From the NCBI GenBank assembly GCA_950295325.1, contig OX485805.1, positions 26,275,501 through 26,339,500 on the forward strand: 64,000 bases of DNA. Direction: 5' to 3'. Below, in pieces: positions 13,606 through 41,863 of this stretch. This DNA is from Polytrichum commune (lineage: Eukaryota > Streptophyta > Polytrichopsida > Polytrichales > Polytrichaceae). Made by a program: the position numbers and the translations under genes. How positions within the stretch are numbered: position 1 is the first letter of the stretch; the number at the start of each line of letters is the position of its first letter. Under the pieces are notes generated by a model. That model was not told where the DNA came from, did not search any database, and worked only from the letters and a program-made list of their open reading frames with translations.

Positions 13606-15539
13606 TTAATAAGCTGCTGTTGACCCATTTGTGTCTGCGGCATCCACCTTGTTTGCAAGCTCAAACCGACGTCTCAACCAAGCTGTTTCCATGTCGATCA
13701 TAGCGAGATCTGTTTCCAGCCATCTTTGGAAAGTTCGGGAGACCACAATCTTCTCTGCCTGACCCCAATCTAAAAGAGGAGTTCCAGGGGATCCATTCTC
13801 AAGCCGAGCCTCGTACATGCTTTCTGAGGTGCCTGTAATCTCCTCCGTTCTTCCGTCCAAGAGCCTTCTTCTGACTTCGTTCCAGCAATCGATGTAAGGA
13901 TGAGCAATTGGGCGGGCGGATTTCACAAACCTGACTGCATCGTCAAGCTCCATGCCCTGGACGAAGGTTAAGTGACCGACTGTAGTGAGTGTGGCTCGGT
14001 TGATTCCCGCAGTGCAGTGCACATACACCTTCATTCCTCTTGCCACCAGCATATTCAACATTCGGACGGCAACTGGAAGCATCAGTGACTGGTCTCCGTG
14101 ATCAAAGTCCCGAATCGCCACTCGTTCCAATAAAATTCCTCGCTCCACCTGTTGAGTACCAACAGAATCATCATCATCAAGCCTCCAAAACATACATAGA
14201 ATTCACACACAGAACATACTGAGTAACCCAAATGACATACGAAAAACTCCTCCATATGTAAGAGCGGTTAGGGGAAGGTTAGCTTCGGTGATCGGTGATG
14301 AGCTGCATAACTTCTTTACCTATGTTGAACCAAAGAGAAATGGAAAGGCAATTATGCAAAGTGAAAGGTGGAGCACCGCTCTATTACGGATGGCATAGAT
14401 TGGAAATTTAAGGACACCAAAGCAGAGGTCACTCTGGAGATTTGAGAGCAGAGAATAGACAAGTCATGGTCTTTCAGGAAACATAAGAGAGCATACAGAA
14501 CACAAAGTGTCCCAATGACAGACCGACTATTGCTGCATAATCCAGAGCGGAGATTACGAGATGGCAAGCTTCGGTAATCGGCCAGATGCAAAAGAAAAAA
14601 TTACCTATGTTGAAGCAAAGAGAGAATAGTATAGGCAATCCATTGGAAAATGGTGTTACCGCTCTATTGCGAATATGGCGTCAGATGGTTTTTTGAGGCA
14701 TCAGAGCAGAGGGCATTCCAGAAATTGAGAACATACAGAGAGCATACAAAACACGGGGCGTTTCCAATGACACACGAACGCTTGCTGCATAATCCTGAGC
14801 GCTTACGAGATGGCTAGGTTCGGTAATTGGTAAGCTGAAGACAAAATTAGCCATGTTGAAACAAAGAGAGAGAACAGCATATAGGCAATGCATGGAGAAA
14901 TGGTGTTACCGCTCTAGTGCGGATGGAGTCGAATGGAATTTTGAGTGCATCGAAGCAGAGATCACTCTGCAGATTAAGAACGGCATCAATGCCAGCTTCG
15001 TCCACCATGCGGTCGACGTCCCCAGGGCTTCGAGGGCACGAACCGACAACGATATTCGGTGTAATTTCATTCCAGTTGAGAGTCCATTGCCACTGGAACG
15101 GGCTTGCATCTTTGGCTTCGGCTGCCTCTTTCTGCCGCTGCTCCCAACCTTCCTTCTCCGCCTCGCTCATCGGCGGCAAGCTGTCTGTCTGCGCGCTACA
15201 CATCCACTCTCTCCTGCTCGAAACGGGAACAATTGTGTTCATTGACGAGACGAGTTTCGAACTCGCACCTCCTCCTCCACTTGCCCATGCGGTGCTGACA
15301 TTGCTAACCGCCCTACTCGGCGAGGTTTTTGATGCCGAATCTACGGCTGGAGAATAAATCATCGAAGAGGACATCGAGGAGGAAACGATTTTTACAGATA
15401 GAGGAGAAGGGATAATCCGGCTTGGAACACAAGAAGAAGAGCTTCCAAGGAGATTTGACGAAGTGCAGTAATTAGAAGAGACGGCCACTCTGGTGAACGA
15501 CATTTGGGAGAACGATGCGGAACAATGAGCAGCAGCCAT
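13606..15539 (-). CDS. Plastid-type dual-specificity phosphatase, SEX4/LSF2-like, 2 exons
   Basis: CX5R phosphatase of the plant DSP class that includes the phosphoglucan phosphatases SEX4 and LSF2; removal of phosphate from starch glucans is a family-based guess. Exon 1 is 15539-14910, exon 2 is 14148-13606, with a 761-bp GT..AG intron at phase 0; product 389-390 aa. Residues 1-45 are Ser/Ala-rich and look like a transit peptide. The LSF2-like recognition block NEITPNIVVGSCPRSPGDVD and DAVLNLQSD lie near residues 165-195. The probable general-acid Asp is in VAIRDFDHGD, and the P-loop is HCTAGINRA (Cys and Arg both present). PYIDCWNEVRRRLLDGR and an acidic, helical C-terminal tail follow. No CBM20/CBM48 starch-binding module is visible. 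The P-loop 'GINR' differs from the 'G(L/M)GR' I remember for SEX4/LSF2, so it is probably a separate subfamily. Confidence 0.9.
14203..14999. repeat. Threefold tandem duplication covering the exon-1 end and intron of the phosphatase
   Basis: Three diverged units on + share the blocks 'gaacatac..caatgacac', 'cttcggtaat', 'tatgttgaa.caaagaga' and 'accgctct.tt.cgga'. The splice-donor-equivalent points are at 14910 (real exon 1), 14660 and 14377, spacings of 250 and 283 bp. The copy at 14442-14377 (minus strand) keeps an open 22-codon frame matching NLQSDLCF..LK.P...IR.RA of the true exon, with 15 of 22 residues identical. It is followed by GT. The 14660 copy is broken by indels but keeps the donor GTAACACC. 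Confidence 0.88.
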
Positions 15540-26824: not shown

Positions 26825-29800
26825 TCATCTGGTTGTTGGAGAGGTGTGTACCTCTTTCGTTACAAGGTCCCCGTTTTTGTTGCGCTCTTCTTGTTCCTCC
26901 ATGACAATGTTATTCACCACATCCCCTTCACCAGTCTTCTCTGTCTTTTGTGCGGTTGTCTCCTTGCCTGCAACCTCACCCTTGCTGTTCAGTCTGAACT
27001 TTTCCTTCACATTCAAGCTTGCATCCTTTTCAACCTGTCCAGCTTCATTAGTCTCCTTGGTTGTGCTGGATGTTTTTCTCTCCTCCACTGAGTCCAACTT
27101 CTTCTTCTGTTGCCTGAAACTGATGGTTTCCTCACCATGTGGAAGTGATTCATCAGTACTTCGGCTCGTAGTAGTGCCTGAAACCTCTTCCTTGACAACC
27201 TCTGAAGCTTCACCAGTGCAGTGTTGCGATCCCTCATCCTTGCTCTTGTGTTCCAGTGCAACATGTTCATGTGTCTGCACAATTTCATCATCCTTGTCGT
27301 CCTCGTCTCGATTCACAAAATAGGTACCCTCTTTGGAAACTTCCTCAGTTTCTCTGCCACCCCACTTGTAAACCTTGTCCTGAACATTCTCATTCAATTT
27401 GGAGACGTTACCTTGAAGTTTGTCGTTCATCTTCGACACATTCTCGTGAAGGGTTTCATTCAAGTTTGTGAATCCAGACTCAACAGGCTCGGCCGCTTGT
27501 GCCATTGTTATTTTCACGTCCTCCACCACCTGCCCACACAACTCCAATAAATCTGAGCCCTCAAGTACAAGTCCATTACAGGAGGTGGAAAAGTTTCTAT
27601 AGAGTCATTGTATATTCCCATAACAAGGTCCACGCAATTTGAGCATTTCAAATGAGGTTCAAGGCTAGAAAGTCTTCCGATCCTGTGGGTCCTATTTGAA
27701 AATTTACATGTGGAGCCATGCAATGTTACTACATGTTGTTGACCTAATTTCACTTAGAGAATTGATCACTGACTAGGAATATGATCACATCTACAGATGA
27801 ACTAAGTGGGGTTTGCATTCTAATCTTTTGCAAAAACAACTATCAGTTCTTGAACGACAGACAGCCAACATGTACGGCATAGCTGGAATTATCTATATTG
27901 TAAATTTCTTTTCAGTTTGTCCACTTTGACTGGGTATCTTACGTTGTGTATGACTAATCTCTGTCATCAAGGACCTGACTTCCATCCACTTGTGACAGAC
28001 CAATGTACAATCGTTGACACGAAAGTCTTGAGGTTTGGACTTTCCTAATATTGAAGATAACCTCTACAATAGCAACCTAGACAAATGGTGTGTGTAGCTA
28101 CTGACAAAAAATCTTCATAAGCTCTACAATTCTTAAACATGTGTGAAGGACGTTCTCTTTCTATTCTAGCTTCAAGAATAAATTTTCAAGAATTAAGGTC
28201 CTTGAGTGCATGTATGAATACTGGGCATAGTCAAGTGGTACTAAGCTCTCGTTAGTTGACACCCCATCGTTGACTATCTTTGAACATAAAGCCTTCTTCA
28301 ATCTACCAAGATTCAATTGAAGAGGGGTGTCCCCAATGGAATCATTTTTAGGTTATCCAGATTACCTGAGAATTATTATCTGAGAGCTATTTTGCATTGG
28401 AACTTAAATAGGCTACTTAAGAACATTTATGTTTGGTTCCTTGAACTTTCAGTGAGCAGAAAAGAAGACTTACATGTTCACCACCACCGATGACCACATC
28501 TTTCACACTGTCCTTCACACTGGTCACAGCGCCCTCAACATCTTCCTCAAGCTCGTCAGCAACACTATCAATCTTGTTCAGATTGTGGTGTTTTCCTTGT
28601 CGATACGGAGTTGCTGGATACACATAAATATGCGCCACAGCTGCAATTGCCATCTGCACAGTTAAGGTAACATCAGGCAAGGTAGAGAACTCGAAAGTCA
28701 ATGCTTCATTTAAACCCTGGGGGTTCATCATGTCTTGAAATGATGAAGGTGGTGATAAATATTATTATACCATGAAAAAATCAAGCCTAAAAATACTGTT
28801 TTGAGAGTAATCATTTAGAGTACACTGGAGAACCCTATGCATTGGGTTGCCTCGTCAGGCCAGGGTTCAGTATATCTTCGTCTGACTAAAACAGGGACAG
28901 ATAGATACTTGCTGTTGAGACATGAAGAAAAAGAATAGATGACTCCAGTGTTGCTACCAGTGTCATGTCTTTGAGTTAGTCAATTCTATCTGTAATCCCG
29001 AAATGGGCATTGCAAGAATTAGAGGTCTTGAAGACTACTGCCGCCTTTCAAAGGTTAACATCTTAAACAGGTGCAAACAAACCGGCCTGCACCTAATCTT
29101 CCCCAAGGGCAAGCCCCTAGGTTCCCACATGATCGGTTGAAAATATCTGGTTCACTCAGATACCCCCACTGTGATTGGTTAGGCCATAGTGGTAGGGCGC
29201 ACCAGAAATCAAGTATAAGGAAGGTCACCCGTCCTAGCATGATTCCAGCCTTAGACGGGTTAACCTCGGAGTTCCCATGGGATCAAGGTTAAGGCCCTTG
29301 TATTTAGGCCACCCCTTGAGATATGAATGTGAACATTTGGTCGGGAATTGGTTGTTTTGCATACAGTACCTTCCATGTTCAGTAAGTTTTTGGTGGATGC
29401 TTGGAGGTCAAGTGGAGGTTTGATTGAAGAAAGTTCGATATCAGTTCAATTTGGGCCAAACTCACTCTGGCATGCCAAGAGATGCTAAAATGAGGTTGGC
29501 CCTCGATGAAACAACATAGGTTGCTCTTCATTCAAATTCAAACAGGACTTCTAAGCATGCACCACAAGTGGAAAGAAATTATTGATATTGTAGAGAAACA
29601 ACCAACTGAAAATCATAGGGGACTAACTCCTGACGTAAAGGTCATTAAGGTAAAGAATTACAATAATATATAGCGGAAACAGCTCATTGATGCTCTTGTT
29701 GGATAGGTATCTAGAGAACCAGCAGGTGGTGGCTTCAAGATGGAAAGAGATTACCTACCTCGATGCAAATAATGAAGTCTTGGAGATTGGTCTGGAGCAT

Positions 29801-32600
29801 GTCAGCTTGCTCTTCAGAGGGATGGAAAGGTAACCACTTCGCTGCGAGTCCTGTCGCAAAGACAAGGGCAATGACCACACCTTGCCACCATGTTACAAAG
29901 ACGACTGCCTTGAAACAAAGAAACTTTGCCAAAGGGTTGATCTCATGAAGCTCGTGCTTGGTTGCATAGTAGAACTGCACTAGACAGTAGAGAGCCCACA
30001 TCTGGCTGAAATTTTGCAGGATCGTGATGTATGGGTATCTGCGCAAGATGATGAGCCATAATTTGTTAGAGAGCTCTGAAGTGTAGTGCGAGTTATATAT
30101 AATAGTAGAGTCATCTTTTAATTCAATGGGACTTTTTGTCGGGAGTTCCCTACGATTTTGCAGTGGTTGTTCTGCATGCAATGTCAAAAGTTTCTTTCCA
30201 GTTTTGTTTCATCTTTGGAGGTAGAGTTTTAATTTGAATGAAGAGAAACCTATTTTGGTTCATGAAAGACCAAATTCATTGGAGCACCATTGACATGCCA
30301 AAATGAGTTTGACCCTTAATGAACCGATATAGAATGTTCTTCATTCAAACCTCCACACTACCTTCAAGCGTGCACCACAAATTTATTGAGGATTGGAAGG
30401 TGTTGCATGCAAATAATCAAGATCTGTGCATGCAGGGGTTAATGGGTCGAGGTAACTTACCCCAGGCTGAAGTCAAAATCTCCCTCACCATAGGCATCGA
30501 ATATACTCAGAATCAGCGCTGCCCAAGAGCAAGTCACCTTGATTATCACCTGACATGCAAGCAGTGGGCCTTGCAGATCAGAACTGAAAGTGATTAGACT
30601 CTAACAGAGGCGATCTCACGTCCTTCAAGTACGTTACCTTTAAAGGACCGGGGTCATGTTTATATGGGGCACGTGAAGATTTGTACGCACCCCAAACAAG
30701 TAATTTTGGGTCATTGGTATTGAATCCATATTTAGAACTACATATAATAGAGGAAGTGAAGAAAAAGTCATATGTGACGACAATGATTAGATATATGTGG
30801 TATATATTTGAGTCTAGGTCATTTATACAAGCTCAAATCCTCCTTAAATTCAGTTTACACACATATATGCTCTGATTGGAACCATGCATATGATAGATAG
30901 TAACTTACGTACTGCACAATACCGAATTTGGCAGTATCATAGAATGGGCGACCGAGTTCCCAAGGTCGAAGACACCATCTGAGTGGGATTGGATGTACCA
31001 CCGCAGGCGATTTTATGTTTTCGTCCAAGAGTGGTGTATGTGCTTCCTCAGAACCTTGCTTCTCTAACCTCTGGACAGCCATCTCCTCACCCCCTACACA
31101 GTTTCATCATGACTGTATATCAGCCCCAGTGTAAATTAAAAATTGTAAGTGCTACAGATTCTTTGACCTCATAGTTGCAAAGATGGAGCAGCAGATTTGC
31201 AGAATTGGCTTATCTCTAGTCATGGGTCATGGAACAATAGCCCACAACCATTAGAGTTATCCTCTAGCTCAACATGACTTTTGGTCCGGAGTTGATTGTT
31301 TTGGATACAACACCTTCCATTGTCTGGTAAGTTTCTGATGCATGCTTGGAGGGAGTGAGGAAGTTTGAATGAAGAACATTCTATATCAGTTCATTGAGGC
31401 TCAAACTCATTTTGGCATGCCAAGGAGTGGTAAATGAGTTTGGCCCTCAATGAACAAGAATAGGTTGGTCTTCATTCAAATTCAAAACTACCTCCAAGCA
31501 TGCACCACAAGCGGAAAGAAATTGTTGACATTATATGAAAACCAACCAATGGAAAATCGTAGGGGACCAACTCCCGACGAAAAGGCCCATTGAGTTAAAA
31601 GATAACTCTTTTGTGCCACACAGGAATTCTCTGAGCTTGAACTACTGTAGATTTAGTTCCATTGAATTCACGTTGATTTGATAAAGCTGAACAAAAGACC
31701 AAATTTTGGAGATGTTCCATACCCAGGCAAGCAATCAGGTAACAACCAAATGCATACAGAGCAAATGCTTCGTAGCAGTTGCCCATTATGGTGAAGTAGA
31801 TCGCCAGTTTGGGCAGCAATAGTGATAGAAACTGAGACCTACAGAAAAGTGGGCCAAATCAGATAAATCCTATGACAAGACCTGTTACACATTCTCACTT
31901 CACATAGAATCGACCTCTCCACACCAAAGTAGCTATTCTTGGGTCATTCACTTTTCATGCTCAAACCATGTAATTTGACAGGAATGAACACGTTACCGAT
32001 GTGACAGCATATATGGGAACCATGAGGATGATGCCTATCAGCCACTTTTGCTCCTGCAATAACACATCAAGACTTTGCGTCACAGTGAATAATGATCTTT
32101 AGGCTTCCAATCAAAAAGTGACAGAGGCCATATGGATGTACAAATCCTGATCCAAGGAGTTGCAGACAGCAGCAGGAGGTGAGGTGATGTGAGATATTAT
32201 ACACATTGCATCTGTCTAAGTAGGAATTAGATAGAGTAGAGAGGCTCTTGAGATTTCTTGGCAATATGGAGTTGAAAGAGTCACAGTTCAGATTAGTCCT
32301 GTTTATGCAAGAGTGCTTGGAAATGAAGGTTCAACTCAACCCATTATCACATATTTTACAACTTGACTACGCAGTGTTTAGGTTGGAAGAAATGAGTACC
32401 TTGGGTTCATTGTAGCCAGAGAGGTGCTCAAATAAGAGATAAAATGAGAGACTGAGTGCAAATAGCACAAAAGCCGAGGAAATAATGACTGCCCACAGTA
32501 GCATAGTGGCAGCCCCTGTTTGTGACATTGCCTTTTCAAGTATCTCTGGTACTCCTTGTTGCCAATCGCCCCTGCCCATCATTACAAGTGGTAATCCCAT
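26825..32600 (-). CDS. LAZ1: LAZ1 family protein (DUF300 / organic solute transporter Ost-alpha), 8 exons
   Basis: Multi-pass membrane protein of the DUF300/Ost-alpha superfamily; Arabidopsis LAZ1 acts in programmed cell death and at the tonoplast in brassinosteroid signalling. Inferred exons (minus): 32600-32400, 32053-31997, 31831-31723, 31093-30909, 30549-30461, 30038-29759, 28653-28474, 27529-26825. All introns are GT..AG, phases close, and the total is 1806 bp (601 aa). Family blocks in order: TM1 with SFYLLFEHLSGYNEPK, EQKWLIGIILMVPIYAVTS, NCYEAFALYAFGCYLIACLG, KFGIVQY, YPYITILQNFSQMWALYCLVQFY, KFLCFKAVVFVTWWQGV, LQDFIICIEMAIAAVAHIYVYPATPY, then DVVIGGGEHVVEDVKITMAQAAEPVESGF. Exon 8 adds about 235 residues of acidic, low-complexity, heptad-like tail, common in LAZ1 but variable. 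I recognise at least seven hydrophobic spans. Introns carry several mobile elements. Confidence 0.95.
28155..28430. repeat. Dispersed repeat D2, copy 1 (in LAZ1 intron 7)
   Basis: The segment 'attctagcttcaagaat..aaggtccttgag..catagtcaagtgg..agctctcgtta..caatctaccaagattcaattgaagaggggtgtcc..ggttatccagattacct' recurs in inverted orientation at 35845-36125. No termini were resolved. It lies between exons 7 and 8. Confidence 0.75.
29071..29334 (-). mobile_element. Candidate Cassandra-type (5S-bearing TRIM) LTR or 5S-derived SINE
   Basis: A 5S rRNA-like block (29219-29286) sits in a segment that on the minus strand starts with TGTTCACATTC at about 29334 and runs to about 29071. Cassandra TRIM elements carry a 5S sequence inside each LTR, and SINE3-type elements have a 5S head. 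I could not prove either boundary or a target duplication. The right edge abuts a foldback MITE. It lies in LAZ1 intron 6, on the same strand as LAZ1. Confidence 0.45.
29219..29286 (-). ncRNA. 5S rRNA-derived sequence (pseudo-5S with internal promoter boxes)
   Basis: On the minus strand it reads GATCCCATGGGAACTCCGAG, then GTTAACCCGTCTAAGGCTGG, then AATCATGCTAGGACGGGTGA and CCTTCC. This follows the plant 5S order GATCCCATCAGAACTCCG, AGTTAAGCGTGCTTGG, TACTAGGATGGGTGACC, with changes in the A-box region and loss of the 5' and 3' ends. The C-box-like GGACGGGTGACC is well kept. It is not a functional 5S gene, since about half the molecule is missing. Confidence 0.8.
29334..29645. mobile_element. 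Foldback MITE, family F1, copy 1 (LAZ1 intron 6)
   Basis: The left arm 'atttggtcgggaattggttgttttgcata' pairs with the right arm 'accaactgaaaatcataggggactaactcctgacg' read in reverse. The two halves are inverted copies of one another over about 300 bp ('gatgcttggaggtc..' against '..cttctaagcatgcacc'). Two more copies lie in other LAZ1 introns. No coding capacity. Confidence 0.8.
30129..30425. mobile_element. Foldback MITE, family F1, copy 2 (LAZ1 intron 5, right end truncated)
   Basis: It begins 'actttttgtcgggagttccctacgattttgcagtggttg' and runs through the palindrome centre ('caccattgacatgccaaaatgagtttgacccttaatgaacc'). It ends near 'ggaaggtgttgcatgcaaataatcaaga' without the outer part of the right arm. 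It lies between exons 6 and 5. Confidence 0.75.
31276..31588. mobile_element. Foldback MITE, family F1, copy 3 (LAZ1 intron 3)
   Basis: The left arm is 'cttttggtccggagttgattgttttggataca'. The right arm is 'accaaccaatggaaaatcgtaggggaccaactcccgacgaaaagg'. Almost the whole 312 bp is self-complementary. It lies between exons 4 and 3, in the same relative orientation as the other two copies. Confidence 0.8.
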
Positions 32601-40000: not shown

Positions 40001-40889
40001 ACCAATAGGAGATTGTTTTCCCCTCCACTTCTACTTCCCGCATTTAAAAAATAAAATAAAATACCATCTCACATTTAGACACCGTGTATGAAATAACAAA
40101 GTAGCATCAATTTAATTCATTAGAAGCATCATTTAAAGAAGTCGTTTAGAACAGCAGTTATGAAGGGGAGAGGTACCTTGGCAAGCGGCTCAATGGAAGG
40201 ATTATTGAGCTGCCGCTTAACCGTCGCCGGCGGCTCCAAGACGGTCACAACCGCAGGCTTGGGGCAGGCTCCTTTCTCACACACATTCTTGGCATCCGAC
40301 GAATCAACGAACGCCACGTCATGGTCTCCGAACACGGGCAGCTCGGGCCTCTTCCAGCCAAACAGCTGACGGTGGCACCCCAAAACCTCTTCCTCCTCCT
40401 CCTCGTCCGAGCTTCGAAGCTCGAGTTTGCGTCCGGCTGCGGCCGCTCCACTGCGGCAGGAGCTCGGAATGGTTGCCGCAACCGGGCCGCTGCAGGAATC
40501 CGTTGCGGTTGTGGTTGCGGCAGGCAGTTTCTCCAGCACCCCAGCGAGCTGGTCCAGTGCGAATGTGCCGATGGCAAGCAACCCTTCTTGCTCGTGGCTA
40601 AACACGAACCGGATCGTCTCTTGTAGCCTGTCTTCCCAAGAATTTTCTACAACGGTACCTGGAATTCCTGAATCCACCATCAATCCTTCATCCTCATCGG
40701 CCGAGTAGACGGTCGGATGATCTGAGAAATCCTTTAAAGGCCTCTGTAGGCGGCCAGGAGTTAGGCCGGTGGTTGATTCGACATTATATTTTTGGTGCCC
40801 AAAATCGGCTCCCCAACGTATGCCGACTCCCAGACGAGATGCCCCTCCGGGTAAACGATCCGACACTGGACCATGGCTGTTCCCTGGAT
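37034..40889 (-). CDS. LAZY1: LAZY1-like IGT-family gravitropism protein (first exon not located)
   Basis: LAZY/IGT proteins link gravity sensing to auxin redistribution in shoots and roots. I infer exons (minus) 40889-40177, 39281-39000, 38249-38000 and 37053-37034, all GT..AG with matching phases, giving 420 codons plus a missing start exon. The diagnostic IGT block is EGLLAIGTFALDQL in exon 2. Downstream come an acidic run (SSDEEEEEEVL), PEEPFSGEEYYSTR, a basic stretch and SLGRIGRLFRP. The C-terminus WIKTDSE-FLVLEM matches the conserved LAZY1 tail (WIKTD.EYLVLEL). It is split by an intron, and the last exon is only 20 bp (TTCTCGTCCTTGAAATGTGA). Exon 2 enters with two bases of a split codon, so a short first exon of the MK..W type must lie upstream, beyond or within the tandem arrays. 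Very small terminal exons are, from memory, usual in this family. Confidence 0.88.
39001..40176. other. LAZY introns with one dispersed-repeat copy
   Basis: The intron at 39282-40176 holds copy 3 of the 'TTTTTGGTGTCCAT' family (core 39782-39800, here TGTCTTTTTGGTATCCGT), preceded by 'cctagaatgatt..ttttgaatacacaatcc'. No other gene-like feature was seen in the intron. Confidence 0.6.
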
Positions 40890-40936
40890 CTGCAAAAGGA
40901 AGAACAAAAAAACAAAAAACAACAAATCTGAATACT

Positions 40937-41863
40937 GTTCATTGGAGCTGATCCATTCCTGTGTAGGTTAACATCATGTATATCAGTTCAGTTCAGTTCA
41001 GTTCAGTTCAGTACTTTGGGTTCTCATGGAGGACTCTGTGATCTAGCTGTGGGAGTGTTTAGGAACAGGGTTACTACAGGTTGACGAGCTGAACACATCA
41101 AATTCCAGTTGCAAATTTGGTCACCCGCGGCTCTTCCGTGAATCTTAACAAGCAAGACAAGACAAGAAAGAGAAACTCTGTTAATTGGAGCTGATCGATT
41201 CCTCATGTGTAGGTTGCTATTCCTATCATTCCAGTTCAGTTCTTCGGAGTTCCTTGGAAGGACTCTGTGAATCAGCTGTCGGAATGTTAAGAAACAGGGT
41301 TGCTGTATCTTGACAAGCTTACAGACCTATCAAAGTCCAGTTGCAAAGTTTCACTACAATTGCACGAGAAATATGGTGAGCTGTGGCTCTTCCCTGAACG
41401 TTAACAAGCAAGACAAGAAATTTTTATATGTTCATTGGAGCTGATTGACTCCTATGTATAACGTCAACGTTCCTATTCCTGCCCTTGAAGGGCACTGCGA
41501 TCTAGCTGTACTAGGAATGATAAGAAACGGGGTTACTGTATCTCGACAAACTTAACCCATCAGAGTCCAGTTGCAAACTCCACTTTCATTGCCCTCTAGA
41601 TGTAGTGACCCATGGCTCTTCCTTGAACCTAAACAAGCAAGGCAAGAAAAATATTTGTCTGTTCATTGGAGCTCATCAATTCCTTCGTAAGTTAACATTC
41701 CTATCATTTCAGTTCAGCTCTTCGGACTTCCTTTGAAGCACTCTGCGATCTAGCTGTGGGAGATTTGTTGAGAAATAGGGTTGCTACATCTTGACAAGCT
41801 TCACTCATCAAAGTCCTGTTGCAAAATTTCACTACCATGGAAATGTCACTCAATGTCGGTGAG
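40937..41863. repeat. Tandem array 1 upstream of LAZY exon 2, four units of 231-250 bp
   Basis: Units begin with GTTCATTGGAGCTGAT (or close) at 40937, 41180, 41430 and 41661. Each carries 'gactctgtgatctagctgt', 'aacagggttactacatcttgacaagct', 'ccagttgcaaa' and 'tggctcttccctgaa..taacaagcaagacaagaaa'. The first unit also contains about eight CAGTT pentamers (40984-41022). The units are clearly diverged. Confidence 0.9.
40984..41022. repeat. CAGTT pentanucleotide microsatellite
   Basis: Nearly eight perfect CAGTT units. The other units of the array show only one or two ('ttccagttcagttctt'), so this expansion happened inside unit 1 after the larger duplication. Confidence 0.95.

Follow-up and report, generated by a model that had tools for sequence, protein, structure and literature searches.

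The question raised by this locus is why the intron of a phosphatase gene contains two additional, diverged copies of the end of the preceding exon together with its splice donor, and whether these copies serve as a working alternative exon or are what is left of a duplication. The explanation that we consider best, with a probability of about 0.86, is that the extra copies are ordinary decaying leftovers of an intragenic tandem duplication and not a working alternative exon. The window referred to below is the whole 64-kb stretch of DNA that was analysed. The DNA looks eukaryotic, and a plant origin is suggested by the relatives of the phosphatase and by its N-terminal extension. Its GC content is 40%, and neither a tRNA gene nor an Rfam family at gathering level was found in these 64 kb. 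Apart from the phosphatase gene, the ORF at 29738-30208 (minus strand) matches the Pfam family Solute_trans_a (organic solute transporter Ostalpha, 5.2e-29), which is also matched by one more of the 104 window ORFs scanned, and the longest other ORFs (40129-40938, minus strand, 269 aa; 26825-27604, minus strand, 259 aa) have no Pfam match at E up to 0.1.

The host gene and its predicted product

The phosphatase gene lies on the minus strand and has two exons, whose coding parts (15539-14910 and 14148-13606) together encode 390 aa:

14910-15539, minus strand: coding part of exon 1, ending in ...SIRTRA, with an N-terminal extension and the start of the dual-specificity phosphatase (DSP) domain (from the ORF, the junction and LSF2 homology, gap-free through the junction)
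14149-14909, minus strand: intron of 761 nt, phase 0, GT...AG
13606-14148, minus strand: exon 2, which includes the CX5R loop CTAGINR as well as the stop codon (from the ORF, Pfam and the alignment relative to solved structures)

The 390-aa product matches the DSP domain family PF00782 (2.8e-12) and, below their own cut-offs, two further DSP-type Pfam families; at E up to 0.1, Pfam returned DSP-type families only and no carbohydrate-binding module. Its best solved relatives are LSF2 (4kyq, 3.3e-18) and SEX4 (3nme, 6.4e-18), which are plant chloroplast glucan phosphatases, and the next ones are laforin (1.5e-12) and then LSF1 (2e-12). By sequence homology, the gene can be assigned to the DSP domain proteins related to LSF2 and SEX4, and plastid targeting of the product is suspected from the N-terminal extension. 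The alignment with LSF2 runs without gaps across the exon junction RA|VERG, with no intronic copy included, so that the plain splice from 14910 to 14148 gives a sensible product; SEX4 carries one extra residue four positions past this junction. Counted on the alignment to the solved relatives, the cysteine of the CX5R loop is residue 255 (C255).

Three tandem units and their divergence

The repeated unit consists of the end of exon 1, the donor and about 180 nt of intron, and is present in three tandem copies, the real one (u1) and two extra ones (u2 and u3):

14733-14981, minus strand: u1, the true end of exon 1 and the first part of the intron (3' boundary approximate)
14451-14732, minus strand: u2, including the additional sequence at its junction with u3 (boundaries approximate)
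14188-14450, minus strand: u3 (boundaries approximate)
14660-14728, minus strand: exon-like segment of u2, with indels (3 gap openings relative to u1), followed by GCG|GTAACACC; score reached by 0/1000 shuffles
14377-14442, minus strand: exon-like segment of u3, with 22 open codons, 15 of the 22 residues being identical to the true exon

The units start at 14981 (u1), 14732 (u2) and about 14450 (u3), with a start-to-start spacing of 246 to 286 nt (measured on repeat families linking adjacent units), and their identity is 77% between u1 and u2 (E 5e-46), 69% between u1 and u3 (E 1e-15) and 68% between u2 and u3 (E 6e-7); no further copy of the unit was found within the window at E <= 0.1. In each of the three pairings of the exon-like segments (u1-u2, u1-u3 and u2-u3), all 1000 dinucleotide shuffles scored below the observed value, and the z values against the true exon end are 9.9 for u2 and 13.7 for u3; the resemblance of the 14377 block to exon 1, noted in the initial annotation of this DNA, is above chance. 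Adjacent, co-linear, in the same orientation and similar above chance, the three units constitute a tandem intragenic exon-intron duplication. Tandem Repeats Finder, applied to 14000-15200, gave two short arrays only and did not report the long units.

What the initial annotation had described for the two copies was found again in full: the coordinates, the 22-codon frame of u3 (NLQSDLCFGVLKFPIYAIRNRA, identical at 15 of 22 residues to NLQSDLCFDALKIPFDSIRTRA in the true exon), the GT behind 14377 and, in the other copy, a full donor kept despite indels (an intact GTAACACC behind 14660). Over its 66 nt, the exon-like segment of u3 is free of indels and stops; it differs from that of u1 at 14 sites (4, 3 and 7 at codon positions 1, 2 and 3), 7 of which are nonsynonymous, with 7 of the 22 residues changed. 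Both extra copies start near one common exon position, and the exon at the copy start (CCGTTCTTAAT) has a short GTTYT in common with the sequence past u3 (TATGTTTTGG), which could be microhomology. At the u2/u3 junction, about 14451-14485 on the minus strand, there are some 30 nt that have no counterpart at the u1/u2 junction and whose pyrimidine-rich end directly precedes the exon-like segment of u3.

In the intron parts, the differences at ungapped sites amount to 32/170 (u1-u2), 69/171 (u1-u3) and 67/169 (u2-u3), giving Jukes-Cantor (JC) distances of 0.22, 0.58 and 0.56, respectively. Since the difference is 40% for u3 and 19% between u1 and u2, these values indicate that, at least for the intron part, u3 branched off first and u1 and u2 separated later; by that measure, the copy that is still open would be the older one. 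The unique changes in the exon-like part (5 in u1, 11 in u2 and 8 in u3, of 65 columns) are distributed unlike those in the intron part (13, 12 and 47, of 166 columns), those unique to u2 and to u3 standing at 11:8 in the former and at 12:47 in the latter (Fisher P 0.003), a shift which hints at a mosaic u2 arising from unequal crossing-over. Relative to length, u2 carries unique changes more often in its exon-like part than in its intron part (11/65 vs 12/166, P 0.047), which is not predicted by a simple two-step neutral history. Given the unlike patterns of the two parts, such a mosaic is possible; on the other hand, if u2 were simply the sister of u3 in the exon-like part, one would expect more u1-unique changes there than the 5/65 observed, and this test is confounded by constraint on u1.

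For the u1/u3 pair, the Nei-Gojobori method gives dS 0.72 and dN 0.15 (ratio 0.21), and if the real exon is constrained, a pair ratio below 1 is expected even with u3 evolving freely. The exon-like part of u3 is also closer to u1 than is the intron part (14/66 vs 69/171 differences, Fisher P 0.006), the u3-unique changes considered by themselves show the same (8/65 vs 47/166, P 0.010), and constraint on the real exon accounts for part of this lower divergence. Neutral decay was simulated in 12 settings, with u3 free, u1 constrained and the present u1 exon taken as the ancestor. Before indels, between 1.9 and 47% of the runs (between 4.9 and 8.0% for equal branches of 0.285) ended with a copy that was open and had kept 15 or more of the 22 residues; the additional demand of 14 or more nucleotide differences lowered this share to 1.4 to 21%. 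The probability of remaining free of indels introduces an additional factor of 0.21 to 0.56 (gap counts of 3 per 171 and 5 per 216, and a third setting, 8 per 171, assumed as a high value), which, applied to the runs with equal branches of 0.285, results in a neutral probability of roughly 1 to 5%, a value to be read with the fact that u3 was singled out because it is open. The open frame of u3 is compatible with neutral decay, and there is a weak hint of past constraint on u3 as coding sequence.

The initial annotation had read the array as an exon-intron duplication caught in decay, a reading that the three-copy alignment supports well, and intragenic tandem duplication in decay is a well-known kind of event. 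We infer that a segment reaching from the final ~70 nt of exon 1 into the intron would have been copied by successive local tandem duplications; alternatively, unequal crossing-over or slippage may have acted on the product of a single duplication. Since the two extra copies lie within the intron and past the original donor, splicing would remove them together with the intron, and their exon-like parts would decay under little or no selection.

RNA candidates were examined and rejected at the same locus. A structured RNA in the intron is not indicated by its folding (z 0.39; 15 of 20 shuffled sequences were equally or more stable), and the sole Rfam match in 14050-15150 at E up to 5, a ctRNA, scores 15.4 bits against a gathering threshold of 50 (E 4.9), which leaves no known RNA for the repeat unit in that interval.

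Splice sites, isoforms and alternative readings

The splice-site percentiles given here are rough values, calculated from approximate plant frequencies. Among the 7184 GTs on the two strands of the window, the true donor ranks at percentile 91.6, and among 7567 AGs the true acceptor ranks at percentile 98.6. The donor of u2 (GCG|GTAACACC) is equal to the true donor in sequence and score, the donor of u3 (GCG|GTGCTC) is at the 71st percentile, and the AG of u3 ending at 14434 is at the 87th, its homologue in the true exon being at the 97.9th.

Reading through the true donor leads to a stop, as the initial annotation had said, TAA being codon 231, ahead of C255 in the CX5R loop. All four computed retention isoforms (up to the u2 donor, the u2 AG|GT or the u3 donor, or of the whole intron) end at this same codon, and joining the true donor to any of eight intronic acceptor-like sites (including 14433), with the rest retained to exon 2, gives stops at codons 212-249. 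The further claim that the decoy donors truncate the protein holds if the preceding intron is retained, but not if u3 is spliced in from the AG at 14434, in which case an in-frame exon results:

14377-14433, minus strand: hypothetical cassette exon of 57 nt, phase 0-0, 19 aa, with a weak donor and a mediocre acceptor

This cassette possibility goes beyond the initial annotation, as do two AG|GTAA junctions in the intron parts of the extra copies:

14600-14628, minus strand: pyrimidine tract and CATAG|GTAATT in u2, junction 14605/14604
14315-14343, minus strand: pyrimidine tract and CATAG|GTAAAG in u3, junction 14320/14319

As decaying leftovers, the copies would leave the normal mRNA unaffected, with 14910 joined to 14148, and the extra donors would be at most occasional decoys whose use leads to the stop at codon 231, with mRNA decay as the probable consequence. 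We consider it quite unlikely that u3 serves, or until recently served, as a cassette exon of 57 nt (14433-14377) adding 19 residues at the exon junction, with an acceptor formed by the AG inherited from the exon (CTCCAG; CTGCAG in the true exon) behind the pyrimidine-rich junction. Its length, its 0-0 phase and the lack of a stop are what such an exon would need, splicing it in would give a 409-aa protein with no frame change, and the pair dN/dS of 0.21, the exon-like divergence below that of the intron part and a frame still open in the copy that appears older by intron divergence all point the same way. Against this, the donor and acceptor reach only the 71st and 87th percentiles (on the rough plant weights), strengthening of the acceptor is not evident, since the homologous AG of the true exon scores higher, 7 of the 22 residues have changed, and the insert would interrupt a stretch that aligns gap-free to LSF2. 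Functional alternative use, which the initial annotation had envisaged along with decay, is thus possible yet unsupported, the u3 donor being weak, its acceptor modest and its frame compatible with neutrality.

A regulatory role of u2, in which use of its donor would retain the u1 intron part and, through the stop at codon 231, lower phosphatase output, agrees with the match between its donor and the true one in sequence and score and with the common stop of the four retention isoforms. We regard this as very unlikely, considering that with a 19% difference between the u1 and u2 intron parts short identical stretches are expected by chance, and that the same outcome could arise in any intron that has a usable donor further downstream. 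The AG|GTAA junctions, in turn, would allow the intron to be removed stepwise through ratchet points in u2 and u3, deleting the decoy units successively. At 14604 and 14319, the donors are at the 98.6th and 97.1st percentiles and the acceptors at the 93.0th and 94.1st (again with rough weights), each behind a pyrimidine tract; the best-conserved block of the intron part falls on these sites in 12 of 12 tests (three comparisons, four widths); and in u1, the unit nearest the true donor, where the counterpart of CATAG|GTAA is CATGGCTAA, both the AG and the GT were lost, by parsimony. The block permutation P values, however, range from 0.0012 (u2-u3, width 25) to 0.145 (u1-u3, width 20), uncorrected for the 12 tests, and vary with width (at width 30 they are 0.065 to 0.076), and the two sites, being copies of each other, count as one event. 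With the scores of these two sites as thresholds, AG|GT sites are not enriched, the window having 26 of them and ten Markov controls between 24 and 39 (mean 33.6), and sites of such quality occur about 0.066 times per 250 nt on one strand. Stepwise removal of this kind is extremely improbable, and it is highly improbable that u3 is a real 19-residue cassette, with its acceptor derived from the coding CTGCAG, in combination with AG|GTAA ratchets that remove the decoy donors stepwise.

Comparison with known systems

The locus is a tidy case of pseudo-exons and spare splice sites being introduced into an intron by tandem duplication, in which copies of apparently two ages stand side by side, and use of u3, if true, would be a documented instance of coding sequence giving rise to an acceptor following partial exon duplication. 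Titles and beginnings of abstracts, searched without the species name, contained no published description of it. The host gene has in common with LSF2 and SEX4 the DSP domain, the CX5R loop and, at the position of the intron, the gap-free LSF2 alignment; it differs from both in its P-loop, CTAGINR, and in its Pfam content, which is limited to DSP-type families (one above the cut-off and two below) without a carbohydrate-binding module.

With intron gain by tandem duplication, the array shares a duplication across an exon-intron boundary that provides duplicate splice signals. Unlike in that process, the copies are within one intron, and its last 42 nt, with the acceptor, show no duplicated counterpart: in a comparison of these 42 nt with the u2 tail, 346/1000 shuffles were as good, which makes a duplication of the acceptor region improbable, and duplicated segments flanking a new intron on both sides are not evident. 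A longer tail comparison (86 vs 82 nt), in which 14/1000 shuffles reach the score (z 2.7), includes repeat sequence, to which we attribute this result. Recursive splice sites, or ratchet points, as presented in PMC8605326, have a pyrimidine tract followed by AG|GT, as do u2 and u3, but here the intron is short and the density of sites is not above chance. Compared with tandem exon duplication, as described in PMC6071210, the phosphatase copies include the 3' part of the exon only, and for this reason lack its native acceptor, and one of them has indels; what they share with it is the copying in tandem of exon and adjacent intron, which that source proposes as the origin of duplicated and mutually exclusive exons.
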